Shown here: piece by piece, positions 160 through 7,355 of the stretch
How the letters are laid out: each line of letters starts with the position of its first letter
Position numbering within the stretch: position 1 is the stretch's first letter
NCBI RefSeq assembly: GCF_003788585.1
Contig: NZ_AYKG01000022.1
Coordinates: forward strand, 1-45,081
Reading direction: 5' to 3'
Origin: Salinisphaera japonica YTM-1
GTDB taxonomy: Bacteria; Pseudomonadota; Gammaproteobacteria; Nevskiales; Salinisphaeraceae
DNA: 45,081 nt
The notes under the pieces: generated by a model
Seen by the model: the letters and a program-made list of their open reading frames with translations, nothing else
What the model was told of the DNA's origin: nothing
Databases searched by the model: none
Program-made: the position numbers and the translations under genes

Positions 160-221
160 CCTGGACGCCGGTGTCCAGGCGCGGGTGTCCAGACTGTCCA
201 CCGTGAACGTTCGCGTGGACA
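160..221 (+). promoter_or_regulatory. Upstream activating sequence, five TGTCCA/TGGAC(A) half-sites
   Basis: TGTCCA occurs at 172-177, 186-191 and 195-200. The inverted form TGGAC(A) occurs at 162-166 and 216-221. They form two dyads, CCTGGAC-N6-GTCCAGG (160-179) and TGTCCAC-N13-GTGGACA (195-221). They lie about 80-140 bp upstream of a sigma-54 promoter, the usual distance for an enhancer-binding activator. The likely ligand is the Fis-HTH activator encoded at 5407-7257. That assignment is inference from linkage. Confidence 0.75.
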
Positions 222-257
222 CCGGATGAACAGCCTGCTGCGTCCGGCGTTCAATTA

Positions 258-270
258 AATCAAAGACTTA
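258..270 (+). promoter_or_regulatory. IHF binding site
   Basis: AATCAA-AGAC-TTA matches the IHF consensus WATCAR-N4-TTR at every fixed position. It lies in an AT-rich patch between the half-site cluster and the -24/-12 promoter, where IHF bends DNA to bring an activator to sigma-54 RNA polymerase. Confidence 0.7.
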
Positions 271-286
271 GATGCTGCCTTAATCC

Positions 287-301
287 TGGCATGTGCCTTG
301 C
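287..301 (+). promoter_or_regulatory. Sigma-54 (-24/-12) promoter of the adh operon
   Basis: TGGCATGTGCCTTGC fits TGGCACG-N4-TTGC with one mismatch, and the GG and GC doublets have the required 10-bp spacing. Transcription would start near 313, just upstream of the AGGAG ribosome site at 324-328 and the GTG start at 335. An earlier in-frame ATG at 293 lies inside the promoter and cannot be the start of this transcript. Confidence 0.8.
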
Positions 302-334: not shown

Positions 335-1378
335 GTGAAGGCAGCCGTGCTCAAAACATACGACCCCGAGGTGACCGATAGGCGCTGGGTCGAATATGAA
401 GACGTCGCCGATCCGGCGATCGCGCATCCGCGAGAAGTGATCGTGCGCGTGGGCGGTGCCGGCGTGTGTCGCACCGATCTGCATGTGATCGAAGGTCTCT
501 GGCAGGAAATTTCGGAAGTCCAGCTGCCCTACATCATGGGCCATGAAAACGCGGGCTGGGTCGAGGCGGTCGGCGCCGGCGTCACGGGCTTCAAACCGGG
601 CGACGCGGTGATCTGTCATCCGCTGGTGACCTGTGGCCACGATCTGGCTTGCCGACGCGGTCACGACATGCAGTGCGAGGACCAAGCCTTCCCCGGGCTG
701 ACCCGCGACGGCGGCTACGCCGACTATCTGCGCACGCATGAACGCACGCTCGTGCGCCTGCCCGATACTTTGGCCCCGAAGGACGTGGCCCCGTATTCCG
801 ATGCCGGGCTGACCGCCTATCGCGCGGCCAAGAAAGCGGCCAAGCAGCTCGAGCCCGGTCAGACCGCGGTGATGATCGGCGCCGGCGGGCTGGGCCATAT
901 CGGCATCCAGGTGCTCCGGTCCCTGTGTGCAGCCGACATCATCGTGGTTGATCGTGCCGAAGGGGCACTCAAACACGCCGAGAACTTTGGTGTGGCCCAT
1001 ACCGTTCTGGCCGATGGCAACGAGATCGAGCGCGTGAAGGAGCTCACCAAGGGCTACGGCGCCGAGGCCGTCATCGATTTCGTGGGGGAGGGCAACGCCG
1101 TGGCCAACGGCCTGGCGATGACGCGTGACGCCGGGACGTATTACATCGTGGGCTACGGCGGCCGGCTGGAGATACCCACGATGGAGATGGTCGTCTCGGA
1201 AAAATCCATCGTCGGCAATCTCGTGGGCACTTATCCCGAACTGGTCGAGCTCATGGAGATGGCCGACCGCGGCCTGGTGGATCTCGCAACCCGCGAATAC
1301 AAGCTCTCCGAGGCTAACCAGGCGCTGCACGATCTGGACGCCGGCCAGGTGCCGGGGCGTGCCGTACTCATTCCATAA
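335..1378 (+). CDS. Zinc-dependent NAD(P) alcohol dehydrogenase (MDR family)
   Basis: A 347-residue medium-chain alcohol dehydrogenase, likely oxidising a short primary or secondary alcohol to aldehyde or ketone in the cytoplasm. The catalytic zinc site is visible as Cys45 in GVCRTDLH and His70-Glu71 in GHENAGWVE. The Rossmann loop GAGGLG is at 182-187. The structural zinc lobe (about 100-114) reads CGHDLACRRGHDMQC, so one of the four usual cysteines is Asp. The GTG at 335 is chosen because AGGAG precedes it closely and the upstream ATG at 293 overlaps the promoter. It is first in an operon with the amidohydrolase (79-bp gap). The same gene pairing is known from propane/acetone monooxygenase clusters; the substrate here is inference. 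Confidence 0.88.
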   Translation: MKAAVLKTYDPEVTDRRWVEYEDVADPAIAHPREVIVRVGGAGVCRTDLHVIEGLWQEISEVQLPYIMGHENAGWVEAVGAGVTGFKPGDAVICHPLVTCGHDLACRRGHDMQCEDQAFPGLTRDGGYADYLRTHERTLVRLPDTLAPKDVAPYSDAGLTAYRAAKKAAKQLEPGQTAVMIGAGGLGHIGIQVLRSLCAADIIVVDRAEGALKHAENFGVAHTVLADGNEIERVKELTKGYGAEAVIDFVGEGNAVANGLAMTRDAGTYYIVGYGGRLEIPTMEMVVSEKSIVGNLVGTYPELVELMEMADRGLVDLATREYKLSEANQALHDLDAGQVPGRAVLIP

Positions 1379-1457
1379 CCCAAAACCGACAATCTCAGGG
1401 CCAGAAGCCCATACAACGGATCGGCCGCCAGCGGTCGATCGCGAGCAGGAGGACAAC

Positions 1458-2483
1458 ATGTATACCGCACCCGACGGCGAGCAGTATTTCATCATCGACG
1501 GGCATATCCATTACTGGGATGCCAGCAAAGCCAATCAGAAGAACCGCCACGGCGAGGAGTTCGTCAACTGTTTCCATGATTATCAGAAAGGCCTGAGCCC
1601 GGATGAATACATCTGGGGCGACGAGAAATTCCGCAACTATGGCCGCGAGACGATGCTCGACGATCTGTTCGTCGACGGCTATGACGATATGGCTATCTTT
1701 CAGCCGACCTACCTCAAGGATTTCTATCACGAGGGCTTCAATACCACCGAGCGCTGCGATCTGATCAAGCAGGAGTTTCCCGAGCGCTTCATTCTCAACG
1801 GCTCGTTCGACCCCCGCGACGGCGCGGCCGCGCTGGATTACATCGATTATCTGGTCGATGACTATCAAATCGCCGGCATCAAGCTCTATACCGCCGAGTG
1901 GAAGGGCCAATCACGCGGCTGGAGTCTGAACGACGACTGGTCGTATCGCTGTCTGGAGCATTGTCAGAAGCGTGGCATCAAGAACATCCATATCCACAAG
2001 GGCCCGACGATTCTGCCGCTGGATCGGGACGCTTTCGACGTCAAGGACGTGGATCATGTCGCGACCGATTTTCCCGAGCTGAATTTCATCGTCGAGCATA
2101 TCGGCCTGCCCCGGCTGGATGATTTCTGCTGGATCGCGACCCAGGAGCCCAACGTCTATGGCGGCATGGCGGTGGCGATGCCGTTCGTGCACGCCCGGCC
2201 CAAATACTTCGGCCGCATCATGTCCGAGCTGCTGTTCTGGATCGGCGAGGATCGCATCCTGTTCGGTAGCGACTATGCCATCTGGCACCCGCGCTGGCTG
2301 GTCGAGCAGTTCGTGGATTTCCAGATCCCCACGGAAATGGTCGAAGACACGGGCATCCAGCTCACGCCCGATATCAAACGCAAGGTGCTCGGCGAAAACG
2401 CGGCCCGGCTCTACGGCATCGATATCGAGGCCAAGAAGAAAGCGCTGGCCGGCGATGCCTTCGCCACGGCGGAGGTCGCGTGA
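1458..2483 (+). CDS. Amidohydrolase-2 family metal-dependent hydrolase
   Basis: A 341-residue TIM-barrel hydrolase of the amidohydrolase_2 family. The metal-binding signature starts with His16 and His18 in DGHIHYWD and continues with His178/His180 in NIHIHKG, His214 in VEHIG and Asp272 in FGSDYAIWHP, giving the full set expected for a mononuclear metal site. A strong AGGAGGA site at 1447-1453 selects the ATG at 1458. The stop overlaps the start of the next gene by 4 bp (GTGA), so the two are probably translationally coupled. In mycobacterial propane/acetone monooxygenase clusters a relative sits next to a DUF59 gene and is thought to help the monooxygenase, but its reaction is unknown. Family call firm; role inferred from neighbours. 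Confidence 0.87.
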   Translation: MYTAPDGEQYFIIDGHIHYWDASKANQKNRHGEEFVNCFHDYQKGLSPDEYIWGDEKFRNYGRETMLDDLFVDGYDDMAIFQPTYLKDFYHEGFNTTERCDLIKQEFPERFILNGSFDPRDGAAALDYIDYLVDDYQIAGIKLYTAEWKGQSRGWSLNDDWSYRCLEHCQKRGIKNIHIHKGPTILPLDRDAFDVKDVDHVATDFPELNFIVEHIGLPRLDDFCWIATQEPNVYGGMAVAMPFVHARPKYFGRIMSELLFWIGEDRILFGSDYAIWHPRWLVEQFVDFQIPTEMVEDTGIQLTPDIKRKVLGENAARLYGIDIEAKKKALAGDAFATAEVA

Positions 2484-3253
2484 ACGCGCCCGCGCGGCGG
2501 GCCCAGGCGTGGGCGGCGATCGGCGAGGTCACCGATCCGGAGCTGGATCAATCGGTCACCGAGCTGGGCTTCATCACCGAGTTCGAGGTGGATGCGATCC
2601 GCGGTGACGTGAGCGTGGCCTATCGCCTGCCGACTTATTGGTGTGCCGCCAACTTCGCTTTCATGATGGGCAACGACATGGCCGAGCGGCTGGGCGAGTT
2701 GGCCTGGACGCAGCACGTTAGCGTGCGCCTGCTCGATCATTTCTATGCCGACGAAATCAACCGCGGGCTGGCCGACAACGCCTCGTTTCAGGATACCTGT
2801 GGCCACGAGGCCAGCGGCGGGCTCACCGAGCTGCGGGCGACGTTTCGCTATAAGGCCTTCATGTCGCGCCAGGAACGCCTGATGGGGTGGCTGCTCGCCC
2901 ACGGTGTTTCTCGAGAAACACTCGTGGCCTGGACGGTCGCCGATCTGGCGGCGTACACGCTGACCGATGCCCGAGGCCTGCATCTGCGCGAGCGCTATCT
3001 GGCCATGCGCCGGTCGCATACGCCGGGGGATTTCAGCGGCCAGGGCTATCGCGGCGATGGCCGGGAAATCGCGTTCGTCACCGCCGCCGGCAAGGCCATT
3101 GCCGCCGACGATCTGGATGCCCATCGACGTCATATTCAATCGATTCGTATGAACAGCGAGTTCAACGCGACGTTGTGCAGTCGCGTGCTGGCCGTGCGCC
3201 AACGCGAAGTTGCCAGCACCGACAGCGCCGCGGGCCAGGCATTGGCGCGCTAA
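2480..3253 (+). CDS. DUF59/MIP18-domain protein (iron-sulfur or metallocentre assembly type)
   Basis: A 257-residue protein. The N-terminal third resembles DUF59 (PaaD/MIP18): VTDPELDQSVTELGF at about 17-31, and a conserved cysteine (Cys55) in RLPTYWCAANF where the family has its reactive Cys. The remaining ~150 residues have no motif I recognise; a CGHE at 107-110 could bind metal. The GTG start overlaps the amidohydrolase stop. DUF59 proteins help load or mature metal cofactors, so in this operon it may service the amidohydrolase or a diiron oxygenase encoded elsewhere (inference). The gene contains a perfect 18-bp palindrome at 2904-2921 written in codons unlike the rest of the gene. Confidence 0.75.
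   Translation: MNAPARRAQAWAAIGEVTDPELDQSVTELGFITEFEVDAIRGDVSVAYRLPTYWCAANFAFMMGNDMAERLGELAWTQHVSVRLLDHFYADEINRGLADNASFQDTCGHEASGGLTELRATFRYKAFMSRQERLMGWLLAHGVSRETLVAWTVADLAAYTLTDARGLHLRERYLAMRRSHTPGDFSGQGYRGDGREIAFVTAAGKAIAADDLDAHRRHIQSIRMNSEFNATLCSRVLAVRQREVASTDSAAGQALAR
2904..2921. promoter_or_regulatory. 18-bp perfect palindrome resembling a ParB (parS) site
   Basis: GTGTTTCTCGAGAAACAC is self-complementary over 18 bp. Its core TGTTTC-TCGA-GAAACA has the arms of the parS consensus TGTTTC-ACGT-GAAACA with a different central tetranucleotide. It lies inside the DUF59 reading frame as GTT TCT CGA GAA ACA, AT-rich codons in a gene otherwise ending mostly in G or C, which suggests selection on the DNA. 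Binding by ParB is not shown. Confidence 0.4.
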
Positions 3254-3287
3254 ACCAATCGAAGAAACATAAACCGAGGAGAACAGC

Positions 3288-4064
3288 ATGCAACTCGATA
3301 ACCAAACAGCACTGATCACCGGCGCCGGCCGGGGTATTGGTCAGGGCATTGCGCTGGCCCTGGCACAAGCCGGTGCGAATATCGTGGCCGCGGACGTGGA
3401 TCTCGCGATCGCCGAAGAGACCAGCGAGAAGGTCAAGGCACTCGGGCGCAAGTCGGCCGCCATTGAAGTCGACGTCACCCAGGCCGACTCGATCGAGGCG
3501 ATGGTCAACGAAGCCGAATCCCGTGTTGGGCCGTTGGATATCGCGGTCAATAACGCCGGGGTGATCAGCATCATGGGCGTCGACAAACTTGACGCCGAGA
3601 AATGGGATTCGTTGATGGCAGTGAACGCGCGCGGGGTGTTTCTGTGTACCCAGGCCGAGATCAACGTGATGCGCCCGCGCCGGTTCGGCCGCGTGATCAA
3701 CGTGTCCTCGATCTGCGGCAAGGTGGGCCTGCCCGATCTGTCGCACTACTGTGCCTCCAAGTTCGCCGTGGTCGGCTTTTCCAACGCGGTAGCCAAGGAA
3801 GTGGCCGACGAGGGCATCACCGTCAACGCGCTGTGCCCCGGCATCGTGGGCACCGGCATGTGGCGCGGTGAGCACGGGTTGGCCCATGCCTGGCGAGAAG
3901 AAGGCGAGTCCGAGGAAGACTCCTGGGCACGCCATCAGGCCACGTTCCTGCCGCAGGGCGTAGCCCAGACGCCCGAGGACATGGGCGGGCTGGCCGTCTA
4001 TCTGGCCAGTGCCGAGCACGTGACCGGCCAGGCGATCGCCGTGGATGGCGGTTTCTCGTTGTAA
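3288..4064 (+). CDS. Short-chain dehydrogenase/reductase (classical SDR)
   Basis: A 258-residue classical SDR. The cofactor motif TGAGRGIG is at 11-18, Asp36 at the end of beta-2 favours NAD(H), NNAG is at 88-91, and the catalytic set is Ser141, Tyr154 and Lys158 (YCASK). The C-terminus ends in the typical DGG followed by a short tail. Fold and length match alcohol, diol and acetoin dehydrogenases of this superfamily. The ATG at 3288 follows GAGGAGA. It is 34 bp after the DUF59 gene, in the same operon. With a second alcohol dehydrogenase and GldA nearby, oxidation of a C3-C4 alcohol, diol or ketol is a reasonable guess, but the sequence does not fix the substrate. Confidence 0.87.
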   Translation: MQLDNQTALITGAGRGIGQGIALALAQAGANIVAADVDLAIAEETSEKVKALGRKSAAIEVDVTQADSIEAMVNEAESRVGPLDIAVNNAGVISIMGVDKLDAEKWDSLMAVNARGVFLCTQAEINVMRPRRFGRVINVSSICGKVGLPDLSHYCASKFAVVGFSNAVAKEVADEGITVNALCPGIVGTGMWRGEHGLAHAWREEGESEEDSWARHQATFLPQGVAQTPEDMGGLAVYLASAEHVTGQAIAVDGGFSL

Positions 4065-4076
4065 CGACAGCAGCAG

Positions 4077-4105
4077 ACGGCCGGTCCAACTGCAGGGCCG
4101 GCCGT
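4077..4105 (+). promoter_or_regulatory. Intercistronic hairpin before the gldA ribosome site
   Basis: ACGGCCGG (4077-4084) pairs perfectly with CCGGCCGT (4098-4105) around a 13-nt loop. The next bases are GGAG (4106-4109), the ribosome site for the gene at 4117. There is no U-tract, so it is not a terminator. It may stabilise processed mRNA or tune gldA translation (inference). Confidence 0.5.
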
Positions 4106-4116
4106 GGAGACTCTTC

Positions 4117-5229
4117 ATGCCAGATGCAACCAACGCGCGCCGGCCCATGGTGTTTGCCAGCCCGTCGCGCTATATCCAGGGCGCCGATGCGTTGAATGAG
4201 GCCGGGGCCGCGATCGCGCGTCTCGGCGACAGTATTACGGTCATCGCCGACGATTTCGTTTGGGACATGGCCGGCAAGAAGCTGGCCACCAGTCTGAATA
4301 CTGCGGATGTGACGTATGCCCGTGTCCGTTTCAACGGCGAGGCATCGAGCGCTGAAATCGAGCGTATTGCCGAGGATATCCGCAGTGCGGGCGTCAATAC
4401 CGTGGTTGGCTTTGGCGGCGGCAAGACGATGGATACGGCCAAGGGTGTGGCCAATACGCTGGGGCTGGCGTGCGTGATTCTGCCGACCACGGCATCCACC
4501 GATGCGCCAACCAGCGCGCTATCGGTGATCTATACCGACGACGGGGCGTTCGAGGCGTATCGCTTCTATGAACGCAACCCGGATCTAGTGCTGGTCGACA
4601 CCACGCTCATTGCGGCCGCCCCGACACGCTTTTTGGCCTCCGGTATCGCGGATGCCCTGGCGACCTGGATCGAGGCACGTGCCGTGGCCCAGGCCGGCGC
4701 ACAGAACATGGTGGGTGGTCGGCCTACAATCCTCGGCACGGCCATTGCCGAGCGCTGTGAGGCGGTGTTGTTCGAGCATGCCGAGGCCGCTTTTACGGCC
4801 AATCAGGCCGGGGTCGTCACCCCCGCGCTGGACGCCGTGGTGGAGGCCAATACCCTGCTTTCGGGGCTGGGCTTTGAAAGCGGTGGTCTGGCCGTGGCCC
4901 ATGCCGTGCACAACGGCTTCACCGCACTGCACGGCCCGATACATGAGCTCACACACGGTGAGAAGGTCGCCTACGGCACGCTCGTGCAACTCGTGCTTGA
5001 AGCGGCGCCAAGCGCCGAATTCGCGCGTTATCTCGCGCTCTATAAAACGCTCGATCTGCCGGTCACGCTGGCTGATGCCGGGCTCGAGAACGTCAGCGAC
5101 GACGATCTGTATCGCGTGGCCGAAACCGCGCTTGCCGCGCCCGAGTCCAGCCATAACGTGGCCTATGCGCTTGCGCCGGCCGATATTGTGGCCGCGATCA
5201 AGGCCGTGGATGCGCTGGCCCGAAGATAG
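4117..5229 (+). CDS. gldA: Glycerol dehydrogenase family (GldA), iron/zinc-dependent NAD
   Basis: A 370-residue protein close in length and sequence to E. coli GldA (367 aa). Visible hallmarks are SPSRYIQGAD near the N-terminus, the NAD pocket GGGKTMDTAK at about 100-109, TTASTDAPTSALSVIYT at 124-140, and metal ligands Asp179, His262 and His280. GldA oxidises glycerol to dihydroxyacetone and also interconverts hydroxyacetone and 1,2-propanediol. The latter fits a C3 ketone/diol pathway with the upstream dehydrogenases, but this is inference. The ATG at 4117 is chosen because GGAG precedes it by 7 nt. It follows the SDR gene after a strong hairpin. Family membership is firm; the physiological substrate is open. 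Confidence 0.9.
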   Translation: MPDATNARRPMVFASPSRYIQGADALNEAGAAIARLGDSITVIADDFVWDMAGKKLATSLNTADVTYARVRFNGEASSAEIERIAEDIRSAGVNTVVGFGGGKTMDTAKGVANTLGLACVILPTTASTDAPTSALSVIYTDDGAFEAYRFYERNPDLVLVDTTLIAAAPTRFLASGIADALATWIEARAVAQAGAQNMVGGRPTILGTAIAERCEAVLFEHAEAAFTANQAGVVTPALDAVVEANTLLSGLGFESGGLAVAHAVHNGFTALHGPIHELTHGEKVAYGTLVQLVLEAAPSAEFARYLALYKTLDLPVTLADAGLENVSDDDLYRVAETALAAPESSHNVAYALAPADIVAAIKAVDALARR

Positions 5230-5406
5230 CCCAGGATGGGCAAGGTAGCCGATGGTCGAGTAGACGAGCGTGCTCACGTGACGAAGTCTGGGGTTGAACA
5301 ACAATCATCGGCGCGGGCGGCCGCGCATGCCGTCGTAAAGCGCCGTATTGTCGCAAAGCCAGTGCCCGAGGCGCCGCTGCGGGCAACGGATTACGGTGAG
5401 CCTGTC

Positions 5407-7257
5407 ATGTCACAGACCTTTGTCGCCGATGGCGCCGAGCCGGAACAGTTGCTGGCGGCCTACCAGCCGTTGCTGCAACAGAACGTTCGTGCCATTCGAG
5501 ACTCCTGGCGCCGCTGTCGCTCGGCGGGGCTGGGTTGTGATGAGCGCCCGCGTGCACGGCGTGTTTCGGCGCGGCGTCTCGAGCGGCTCTATGCGGCAAC
5601 GGCCGATGTGCGTTCGCTGGCGCTCGCCGAGATGCGGCTGTTGCATGATCAGCTGGGCGCGCGCGGCTTCACACTTACGCTGGCTGATCCGGACAGTGTG
5701 ATCCTCGATTGCCTGCCCAGCGATGATCACTCGGTCAGCAGCGCCGGTGAGCTGGCGCCGGGTTACTGCTGGCTGGAGGACACCCACGGCACCAATGCGG
5801 TCGGCACCGCCGCGGCCGCCGGTCGTGTCGTGGTCGTTGCCGGCGCCGACCACTATCTTGAAACCTATCGTGGCCTGGTCTGTATCGCCACGCCGATCTT
5901 CGGCGCGGACGGCGAGCTGCGCGCGATCATCGATGCCACGGCTGAAACGGCCGTGGACTCGCACGCGCTGGCTTATACGCTGGGCCTGATGCAGATGGCC
6001 GGCGGGCATGTCCAGACCGAGCTGTTTCGGCAACGCCATCACGACGCGCACGTGGTGATGCTCGATATGAAGGTCGGCCCGGCAACACAGTCGGCCATCG
6101 CCCTGGCTTTCGAACCGGATGGGCGGCTGCGCGCGACGAGTGCCGGGGCGCGCCAGCTGTTTGCGCATGCCCTGATGGTGCCGGGTACCGATTTTTCGGC
6201 GCTGTTTCGTCAATCGCTCGACACGCTCGTCGATACGATTCGCCCGCCGGCCGGTTTTGTGGAGCTGGTCGATCACGACGGCCATTGGCTGACGGCCACG
6301 CTTTATCTCTGCCAGTCGCCGGCACCCGCCGATAGCCCCGCGGCGGGGGCGGGGCAGGCGCGCTATATCGCTGATGATGCCGACATCAAGGCCGCGCTGG
6401 ATTTGGCGGGGCGGGCAAGCCGCTATCGCGTGCCCGTGCTTATCGAGGGCGAAACCGGAACTGGCAAGGAGCAGGCCGCGCGACACGTGCACTCGGCCAG
6501 CCAGCGCGTCGGCGAGTTCGTGGCCGTGAACTGTGCCGGCTTGGCGGCGGAGCTGATCGAGGCCGAACTGTTCGGCCATGCGCCGGGCGCTTATACCGGC
6601 GCCCGCGCCGAGGGCGGGCGCGGCCTGGTGCGCCAGGCCGACGGTGGCACGCTGTTTCTCGATGAAATCGGCGATATGCCGCATCGCCTACAGGCGCATC
6701 TGTTACGCCTGATCGATACCTGGGACGTACGCCCGGTGGGCAGCGATGTTTCGCAAACCGTGGATGTACAGCTCGTCACTGCGACCTATCGTGATCTCGA
6801 TGCCGCGGTCGAGGCGGGCAGCTTTCGCGCTGATCTGTTGCATCGGATACGCGTGGCGCGTGTGTCGCTGGCCCCGCTGCGTGCGCGTTCGGATTGCCGC
6901 GCTATCGCGCAGGCGCTGCTGACCGGCGTGGATGAAAGCAAAACGTTGTCCGCCGATGCGCTGGCGGCCTTGGCCGCCCACGACTGGCCGGGCAATATTC
7001 GAGAACTGCGCAACGTGATCACACAGCTGGTGCTGGCCACGCCGGCACAGACGATCCCGGCCGATGCCGTGCACGCCTGCTTGCACCCGCGTGCCCCATG
7101 TAGCGCCACTGGCAGCCGCGCAAGCGCGGGTCAGGCGGTCGGCGATGACGATGTGCGCGAGGCCGTGGCCGCCGAGGCCGGCAACATCGCGGCGGCCGCT
7201 CGGCGACTCGGCGTATCGCGTACCACCGTGTACAAGCATTTGTCGGCAACACCATGA
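5407..7257 (+). CDS. Sigma-54-dependent transcriptional activator, AcoR/MimR-like
   Basis: A 616-residue enhancer-binding protein. An N-terminal region with [12 protein letters not shown] and a GAF-type sensor (about 120-180, with [12 protein letters not shown] and [17 protein letters not shown]) is typical of AcoR-like regulators. The AAA+ domain has Walker A GETGTGKE (348-355), the sigma-54 contact loop as GAYTGA (394-399; Tyr replaces the usual Phe) and Walker [11 protein letters not shown] (414-423). A Fis-type [24 protein letters not shown]-like, ends the protein. The open frame extends to 5236, but ATG 5407 has a GGTGAG site and the domain begins right after it. It probably senses a small alcohol or ketone and activates the sigma-54 promoter at 287-301. 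Confidence 0.9.
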
Positions 7258-7309
7258 ATTGTCGCGACAGCTTGCGGTAGCTGTGGCCCGACGGTTAACG
7301 TTCGCAGCG

Positions 7310-7324
7310 CCGACACACTGTCGG
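7310..7324. promoter_or_regulatory. Short dyad upstream of parC
   Basis: CCGACA-CAC-TGTCGG is a perfect 6-bp dyad 32 bp before the parC start. It could be an operator or a weak hairpin in the leader. No known regulator is implied, and a short dyad like this may be chance. Confidence 0.25.
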
Positions 7325-7355
7325 TTTCTGCCAACCGATCCGTCTGCGAGACCCG

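Follow-up and report, generated by a model that had tools for sequence, protein, structure and literature searches.

Activation of a sigma-54 promoter from UAS elements, with an IHF site placed ahead of the -24/-12 element, is in itself textbook knowledge. Activators of the MimR type stand beside operons that we take to be MimABCD/propane-monooxygenase operons; the records themselves speak of alkene or methane monooxygenase. In the sections cited here, AdhR of Clostridium beijerinckii is described as a GAF-containing sigma-54 activator of alcohol-dehydrogenase (adh) genes that needs all three UAS upstream of the -24/-12 element (PMC7017808), and the clostridial AdhR-type motif as TGT and ACA inverted repeats with a 10-12 bp spacer (PMC6615313). 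BmoR/PBMO of Thauera butanivorans is presented, likewise in the parts cited, as a system with an alcohol-responsive sigma-54 activator, a distant UAS and an IHF-like region that is important for activity (PMC8899819), and Bacillus subtilis AcoR as having a palindromic operator of ~30 bp with two half-site pairs (PMC10018347).

Here we analysed the control region of an adh operon in a stretch of 45,081 nucleotides, called the window throughout, which forms the start of contig 22 (strand +) of the 3.26-Mb genome G000. We consider it quite probable that positions 186-301 serve as an enhancer-dependent promoter of this operon, bound by the activator encoded in its last gene at TGNNCA half-sites arranged in N5 dyads, and working through IHF-assisted looping and sigma-54.

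The control region and its counterpart in G008

Upstream of the operon lies what looks like a genuine sigma-54 control region, and the sequence supports the original prediction that UAS, IHF site and -24/-12 promoter follow each other in the correct order, with a linked activator. The promoter element, TGGCATGTGCCTTGC at 287-301 on the + strand (GG 288-289, GC 300-301; predicted start near 313), is near-consensus as had been claimed: under a home-made consensus score, with GG-N10-GC close to TGGCAC-N5-TTGC as the criterion, it is the joint best in the window on both strands at 13.7 of 15.2, the site at 4733 that ties with it at this score being located within a gene. The genome also carries rpoN (PF04552, 216 bits, contig 15). 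At -55, the IHF-type site AATCAAAGACTTA (258-270, +) agrees with 9/9 fixed positions of WATCARNNNNTTR, which confirms the perfect consensus seen before; such a match was equalled in 1% of 200 shuffles of the stretch from -85 to -30.

The cluster of TGTCCA/TGGAC half-sites was recovered by direct reading as well, with TGGAC at 162-166, TGTCCA at 172-177, 186-191 and 195-200, and TGGACA at 216-221. Five GTCCA/TGGAC with starts inside a 57-bp span occur only this once in 45 kb, and among 60 simulated first-order Markov sequences of 45,081 bases each, the maximum per 57-bp span was 2 (39 runs), 3 (20) or 4 (1), and reached 5 in none (0/60). A further TGNNCA box (TGAACA, 227-232) and a near-box (TGAACG, 204-209) were absent from the original prediction. 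Downstream, a perfect inverted repeat, TTTCGTA-CGT-TACGAAA at 308-324, spans the predicted start and extends into the Shine-Dalgarno. It is possibly a second operator; as a leader hairpin it was rejected, since it could not fold if transcription begins near 313.

The upstream limit of the control region is set by a dispersed repeat outside it, at the contig edge (1-135). Besides the window copy, this repeat has at least 40 matches of at least 60 bp in G000 (40 scored of 163 candidates) and 27 shorter ones, nearly all to 104-135. A match of 104-135 lies inverted ~100 bp away in 7/7 opened copies, a pattern that resembles a small element with terminal inverted repeats, inside which the contig begins.

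Among 16 other family genomes searched, only G008 holds a close homolog of the activator (98%), and G008 is the single other species found with this operon. In this species the block 185-224 keeps 37/40 bases (P 1e-5, taking 0.62 as the neutral identity), 303-328 is identical (26/26, P 4e-6), and the -24/-12 stretch keeps 15/18 (P 0.05; the element there is TGGCACAGGCCTTGC) and the IHF stretch 12/15 (P 0.12, alone not significant), while the spacers keep 25/45, near the 57-64% expected from the neutral divergence of two genes further down. These P values should be taken as indicative, since the blocks were drawn with the alignment in view and since identity has already risen to 87-95% in the adh immediately downstream, which also renders the exact neutral level at the promoter uncertain.

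This comparison bears on how the half-sites are paired. The original prediction had grouped them in two dyads, understood here as 161-178 (CTGGAC-N6-GTCCAG, half-sites 162 and 172) and 195-221, and such an operator could be bound as two dimers or as a ring. All five half-sites are indeed present and cluster beyond chance, and both dyads are detected as inverted repeats. In G008, the only same-operon ortholog, however, both dyads are lost: half-sites 162 and 172 are missing, and the extra half-site at 195-200 (-118), which forms the left arm of the second dyad, reads TGTTAA, with the neighbouring bases kept. The conservation of half-sites that had been anticipated for orthologous promoters therefore holds in G008 for 186 and 216, which are intact, and not for 162, 172 and 195. 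Furthermore, the gap of 15 in the second dyad is found in 0/15 related adh promoters, against 14/15 for a gap of 5, in a scoring of inward pairs that leaves aside the outward arrangement of the first dyad. We regard an operator made of these two dyads as unlikely.

Between G000 and G008, four-fold sites show a corrected divergence of 0.51 in msbA and of 0.64 in comEC (whose alignment is heavily gapped), compared with 0.01-0.04 from the amidohydrolase through the activator; the values for adh and parC are 0.13 and 0.11. Given 0.01-0.04 against 0.5-0.6 in msbA and comEC, a recent exchange of the operon body between the two species seems likely, and the promoter spacers have diverged as far as the background. 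In G008 (contig 61), the operon lies between parE, whose end is ~75 bp ahead of the conserved block, and parC; in 12 other family loci showing both genes, parE and parC are neighbours without the operon, 20 to 620 bp apart as read from the coordinates. The names parC (after the operon), parE (before it in G008), comEC and msbA, given from the protein sequences, presumably apply.

The operon and the clade of its activator

The operon (335-7257, +) opens with a Zn-dependent alcohol dehydrogenase (335-1378; PF08240/PF00107), followed by an amidohydrolase (1461-2483; PF04909), a DUF59/FeS-assembly protein (2480-3253) that accompanies the amidohydrolase in monooxygenase operons, a short-chain dehydrogenase (SDR; 3288-4064), a glycerol-dehydrogenase-like Fe-ADH (4117-5229; PF00465; NF006941 at 481 bits, cut-off 336) and the sigma-54 enhancer-binding protein that we propose as its activator. 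The latter had correctly been placed as the last gene of the operon; its ORF, 5236-7257 with an uncertain start (put at 5407 in the original prediction), lies directly before the gene called parC. A simple scan of 7258-7355 on the + strand found no terminator-like site between operon and parC, so that read-through into parC is possible.

Orthologs of the Zn-Adh are 59-69% identical in 11 plasmid records, and those of the amidohydrolase 57-64% identical in the best 15 plasmid records. With the DUF59 protein as bait, G000 stood alone among the 369 genomes of a class sample, as it did among the 398 genomes of a phylum sample with adh as bait. In 6/8 plasmid loci opened for the amidohydrolase (Caballeronia zhejiangensis, Aminobacter, Bradyrhizobium, Paracoccus, Ponticoccus and Gemmobacter), the amidohydrolase-DUF59 pair is located beside soluble diiron monooxygenase genes; among the eight, Caballeronia SBC1 comes without annotation. 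We equate the monooxygenase operons of these plasmid loci with MimABCD/propane-monooxygenase operons. The window operon (335-7257) contains no monooxygenase or GroEL gene, and a PF02332 search of the whole genome gave zero matches, with a control that likewise matched nowhere, so that monooxygenase genes may still lie elsewhere in the genome. In Peribacillus (L124) and Rhizobium N324 (L176), the pair occurs without a monooxygenase in the stretches seen, which suggests that the amidohydrolase-DUF59 pair has a function of its own. Three further stretches, from G007, G013 and G014 (L108-L110), were chosen for an SDR adjoining an activator. In other relatives, ABC transporters annotated as sugar type adjoin adh, with NCBIfam matches that are all below cut-off. 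Together with the enzymes of the operon and the aquaporin/MIP channels in two related operons, these sugar-type transporters point to a small alcohol or polyol as the inducer.

The activator combines an AAA+ domain (PF00158, E 3.5e-55), including Walker A/B and a GAFTGA-type loop (GAYTGA), with a Fis-type HTH (PF02954, 26.2 bits, cut-off 22). A search for a GAF sensor at E up to 1 gave no match in the window activator; among the relatives, PF01590 was found in L184, L181, L188 and L199, and not in L186. The closest relatives found belong to Aminobacter, two Rhizobium and Ensifer (E 2e-95 to 1e-100). The MimR-type proteins gave 4e-65 to 4e-51 and Peribacillus 2e-48; Ponticoccus (3e-49) and Tabrizicola (7e-45) have BLAST scores below the MimR-type ones. 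In Aminobacter, two Rhizobium plasmids, Ensifer, Tabrizicola and Ponticoccus, the activator is divergent from an adh ortholog. In a tree of 45 rows (without L091, L105 and L179), the window and G008 activators group with those of Aminobacter, Rhizobium, Ensifer, Tabrizicola and Ponticoccus at 100/99 (five adh-divergent activators), the join of Tabrizicola and Ponticoccus being flagged by the tree tool as a long-branch meeting. Nine MimR-type rows come together at 100/100, apart from this clade, and the earlier description of the activator as MimR-like is not supported by its place outside them. The window activator itself has a long branch (1.72).

A regular expression for SRxTVYxH-like recognition helices (window: SRTTVYKH) matched 11/20 rows of the clade, 13 of these 20 being assigned by similarity and not by the tree, and 0/105 others; in L197 the helix has diverged to SRNTVYRII. 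With the Rhizobium activator as query, 12 members at E up to 1e-110 were retrieved from 397 genomes of one order, and 11/12 have, divergent from the activator, an adh ortholog 60-68% identical to that of the window; an alphaproteobacterial class sample of 367 genomes added one locus, L212. Taken together, the sequences suggest that this regulator clade and the Zn-alcohol dehydrogenase travel together. Among the matches listed in the open-access literature (titles and abstract openings), there was no account of this adh-activator pair or its operator.

A dyad in the adh promoters of the clade

We compared 15 adh control regions, from 11 of the order members and from Aminobacter, Rhizobium, Ensifer and Shinella. 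Shinella (L182) was kept among them with no activator within 13 kb, L191 was left out for having no adh in its flank and later scored as L203, and L181 and L186 were left out and later scored without a -12 reference. Inward pairs of YGTYCA half-sites were scored at gaps of 0 to 25, with a threshold of 14 of 16. At gap 5 (YGTYCA-N5-TGRACR, 17 bp), 14/15 regions reach at least 14, and every other gap stays at or below 5/15; the reversed sequences gave 1/15 at gap 5, and dinucleotide shuffles (200 bp per region, 300 shuffles) a mean of 0.53 of 15 with a maximum of 5. As a contrast we took adh promoters of Bradyrhizobium (L119) and Caballeronia, which no clade activator adjoins: 0/4 of these (three Caballeronia, one Bradyrhizobium) reach 14, and neither do any of seven monooxygenase or amidohydrolase promoters. 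Since 0/11 contrast promoters carry it, the N5 dyad goes with the activator, and not with adh or with sigma-54 promoters as such. Four loci scored later all reach at least 14, over 480 bp each; it should be noted that the scoring rule was written after most of the relatives' promoters had been seen, that only L203 and L212 of these four were unseen, and that L203 is not beside adh. The DNA word of the clade, and with that its predicted operator, is probably YGTYCA-N5-TGRACR.

The register of these dyads is narrow. Relative to -12, dyads of at least 13 lie at -96/-97 in 10/14 regions, at -128 to -130 in 7/14 and at -151/-152 in two, where L199 is left out of the 14 for want of a -12, and L197, whose element is weak and which has no dyad of at least 13, is entered as a miss. 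The intervals of 32 and 22 bp between these positions amount to about three and two helical turns.

The two best N5 sites of the window's control region fall at -97 and -127. The first, TGGACA-N5-TGAACA at 216-232 (TGGACACCGGATGAACA), is the candidate UAS2 and at 14/16 the region's best match to YGTYCA-N5-TGRACR, with TGGACA instead of YGTYCA as its left arm. N5 sites of at least 14 number 12 in the 45 kb, and by a matrix built from the relatives 216-232 ranks third there; it is its position at -97, in the relatives' register, that makes it credible as an operator. The candidate UAS1 at 186-202 (TGTCCAGACTGTCCACC), a TGTCCA with a poor right arm, scores 12/16, which is equalled at 151, and is 1-3 bp off the relatives' site at -128 to -130. 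In G008 the dyads at -97 and -127 score 13 each. None of the window's TGTCCA half-sites takes part in an N5 dyad of at least 13, and the long branch of its activator makes a drift of the operator plausible. Three of the window's TGNNCA boxes have counterparts at the same positions in Aminobacter, as a box at -118 and as near-boxes at -97 and -86.

As such, the half-site of the original prediction is right in kind, with a different pairing and with the arm at 227-232 overlooked. TGTCCA is one spelling of the half-site in the activator's own clade, and half-site type, N5 spacing and position recur in alphaproteobacterial adh promoters; the five sites as such do not recur, and TGTCCA fails as an operator of the wider AcoR/MimR family, where the upstream regions of 35 activators contain 5, for an expectation of 4.2 (a count without L091, the other family counts being without L089, L090 and L092). 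Another word, TGTC-N9-GACA, was rejected as a general MimR operator: 12 loci yielded 7, and promoters of one species, Caballeronia zhejiangensis, account for three of these. In this species (L117), it occurs at 600-616 and 643-659 upstream of adh and at 3546-3562 upstream of the monooxygenase alpha gene, and these dyads are a candidate operator of the MimR-type activator there. Outside the adh clade, a perfect TGTCCA-N5-TGGACA is present in Pseudoduganella (L011, 8844-8860), flanked by an AcoR-family activator gene on one side and by a divergent -24/-12 element, GTGGCACGCGCATTGCG, on the other. A 27-bp TGTCTAG...CTAGACA repeat of Arenimonas (L012) was set aside, the downstream stretch examined having no sigma-54 site above the cut.

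Could the conserved block at 185-224 belong to a different protein altogether, for instance a repressor binding CGTGAACGTTCGCG at 202-215, with the linked activator acting elsewhere? This imperfect palindrome is unchanged in G008, and there is an unexplained conserved repeat over the predicted start (308-324) as well. The positions of the boxes, however, agree with those in promoters adjoining the activator's own clade, and a search of 17 family genomes for TGTCCA-N15-24-TGGACA, with hits in 14, gave a core-like one, judged by eye, only at this operon in G000 and G008. A different regulator at this block strikes us as very improbable.

The role of IHF is less clear-cut. The best IHF-like match of the relatives starts at -57 on the minus strand, in the orientation opposite to the window's, in 10/14 regions, 8 of these at 8 or 9 of 9 positions, and in the remaining 4/14 it is weak and elsewhere. 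The relatives' matches are mostly weak, with shuffle frequencies of up to 0.6 at -57 and up to 0.97 elsewhere. Most of them are no better than many shuffles. The consensus in the window may be fortuitous too, and looping may proceed through other bending or through flexible DNA; the BmoR promoter, said in the part of the source cited to be without the E. coli IHF consensus, is reported to be active in E. coli (PMC8899819). Conversely, the best match recurs at -57, and the consensus is 9/9 in both G000 and G008 despite the divergence of the spacers, the differences being confined to degenerate positions; a fortuitous site seems to us doubtful.

The elements, their order, their conservation and their register can be read from the DNA, and from these we infer binding, bending, an inducer and dependence on sigma-54 in the cell along the following lines. 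The product of the last gene (AAA+, Fis-type HTH) would bind 17-bp YGTYCA-N5-TGRACR dyads built of TGNNCA half-sites. In the window it would occupy a near-canonical dyad, 216-232 at -97, together with additional half-sites that extend to roughly -150 and include the conserved one at 186-191 (-127). With the DNA bent by IHF at -55, the activator ring would be brought to the sigma-54 RNA polymerase at -24/-12. The ATPase would be turned on once the N-terminal region senses an inducer, which is probably one of the alcohols, aldehydes, ketones or diols that the operon handles, and activation would be self-reinforcing because the activator gene closes the operon.

Further information on this link comes from relatives that depart from it. 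The regulators in L181, L186 and L199 are without a recognisable GAFTGA-type loop; Sigma54_activat is still matched by L181 (E 1e-11) and L199 (2e-21), and L186 gave no match at E up to 0.01. The best -24/-12 scores of their adh promoters are 10.0, 11 and 10.5, so that 0/3 reach 12.7. Where the loop is present (GAFTGA, GAFTNA or GAYTNA), 13/14 adh promoters score at least 12.7 and L197 scores 12.2 (Fisher P 0.006, for a cut-off of 12.7 chosen after the scores were seen and a table without L182, which has no activator, L191, which has no adh, the window and G008). The dyad is kept in all three loop-less loci (L199 16, L181 16 and L186 15 points). The loss of the loop may be one event, given that L181 and L186 pair as sisters in the tree and that the sequence of L199 is similar to that of L181; the joint loss of loop and promoter still links the activator to the promoter. 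We give roughly even weight to a broader proposal, in which a two-gene module of the Zn-Adh and its own activator clade would travel among alpha- and gammaproteobacteria and carry along a rigid enhancer layout, with dyads at -97 and -129 (plus -151 in two loci), an IHF-like match at -57 and the -24/-12 element; its neighbours would be monooxygenase operons, operons for sugar-type ABC transporters, or others. The branch of L181, L186 and L199 would then have lost the sigma-54 contact loop and the -24/-12 element, kept the operator, and become a sigma-54-independent regulator at the same site.

Relation to known systems

The analysis assigns a partner gene to a sigma-54 activator clade of which we found no description, and predicts for it an operator in a fixed geometry. 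The joint loss of loop and promoter is a naturally occurring case in which to test the rewiring of such an activator, and the adh module would be an alcohol-sensing module for comparison with BmoR.

With the MimR-type activators, the window activator shares the broad AcoR-like family, and the amidohydrolase-DUF59 pair, often along with adh, recurs in their operons. In contrast, the MimR-type recognition helix is SRxTLYRK where the window has SRTTVYKH, these activators form a separate clade (9 rows, 100/100), and the window operon is without monooxygenase and GroEL. AcoR is the namesake of the family, but a regulator of acetoin in the account cited (PMC10018347). For BmoR, the UAS is placed, in the part of the source cited, 193 bp upstream of the promoter boxes (PMC8899819), and the likeness drawn here is one of regulation. 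AdhR resembles the present system in that adh is activated from UAS elements; moreover, the dyad of the clade, written as TGTYCA-N5-TGRACA, equals TGT-N11-ACA and as such falls within the clostridial motif, as given in the parts of the papers cited (PMC7017808, PMC6615313). AdhR differs, according to the same source, in being a Firmicute protein with an extra PAS domain that is tied to solvent formation, and in that HU, not IHF, is proposed as its helper (PMC7017808). Judged by regulation and motif, C. beijerinckii AdhR would be the closest working analogue that we found.
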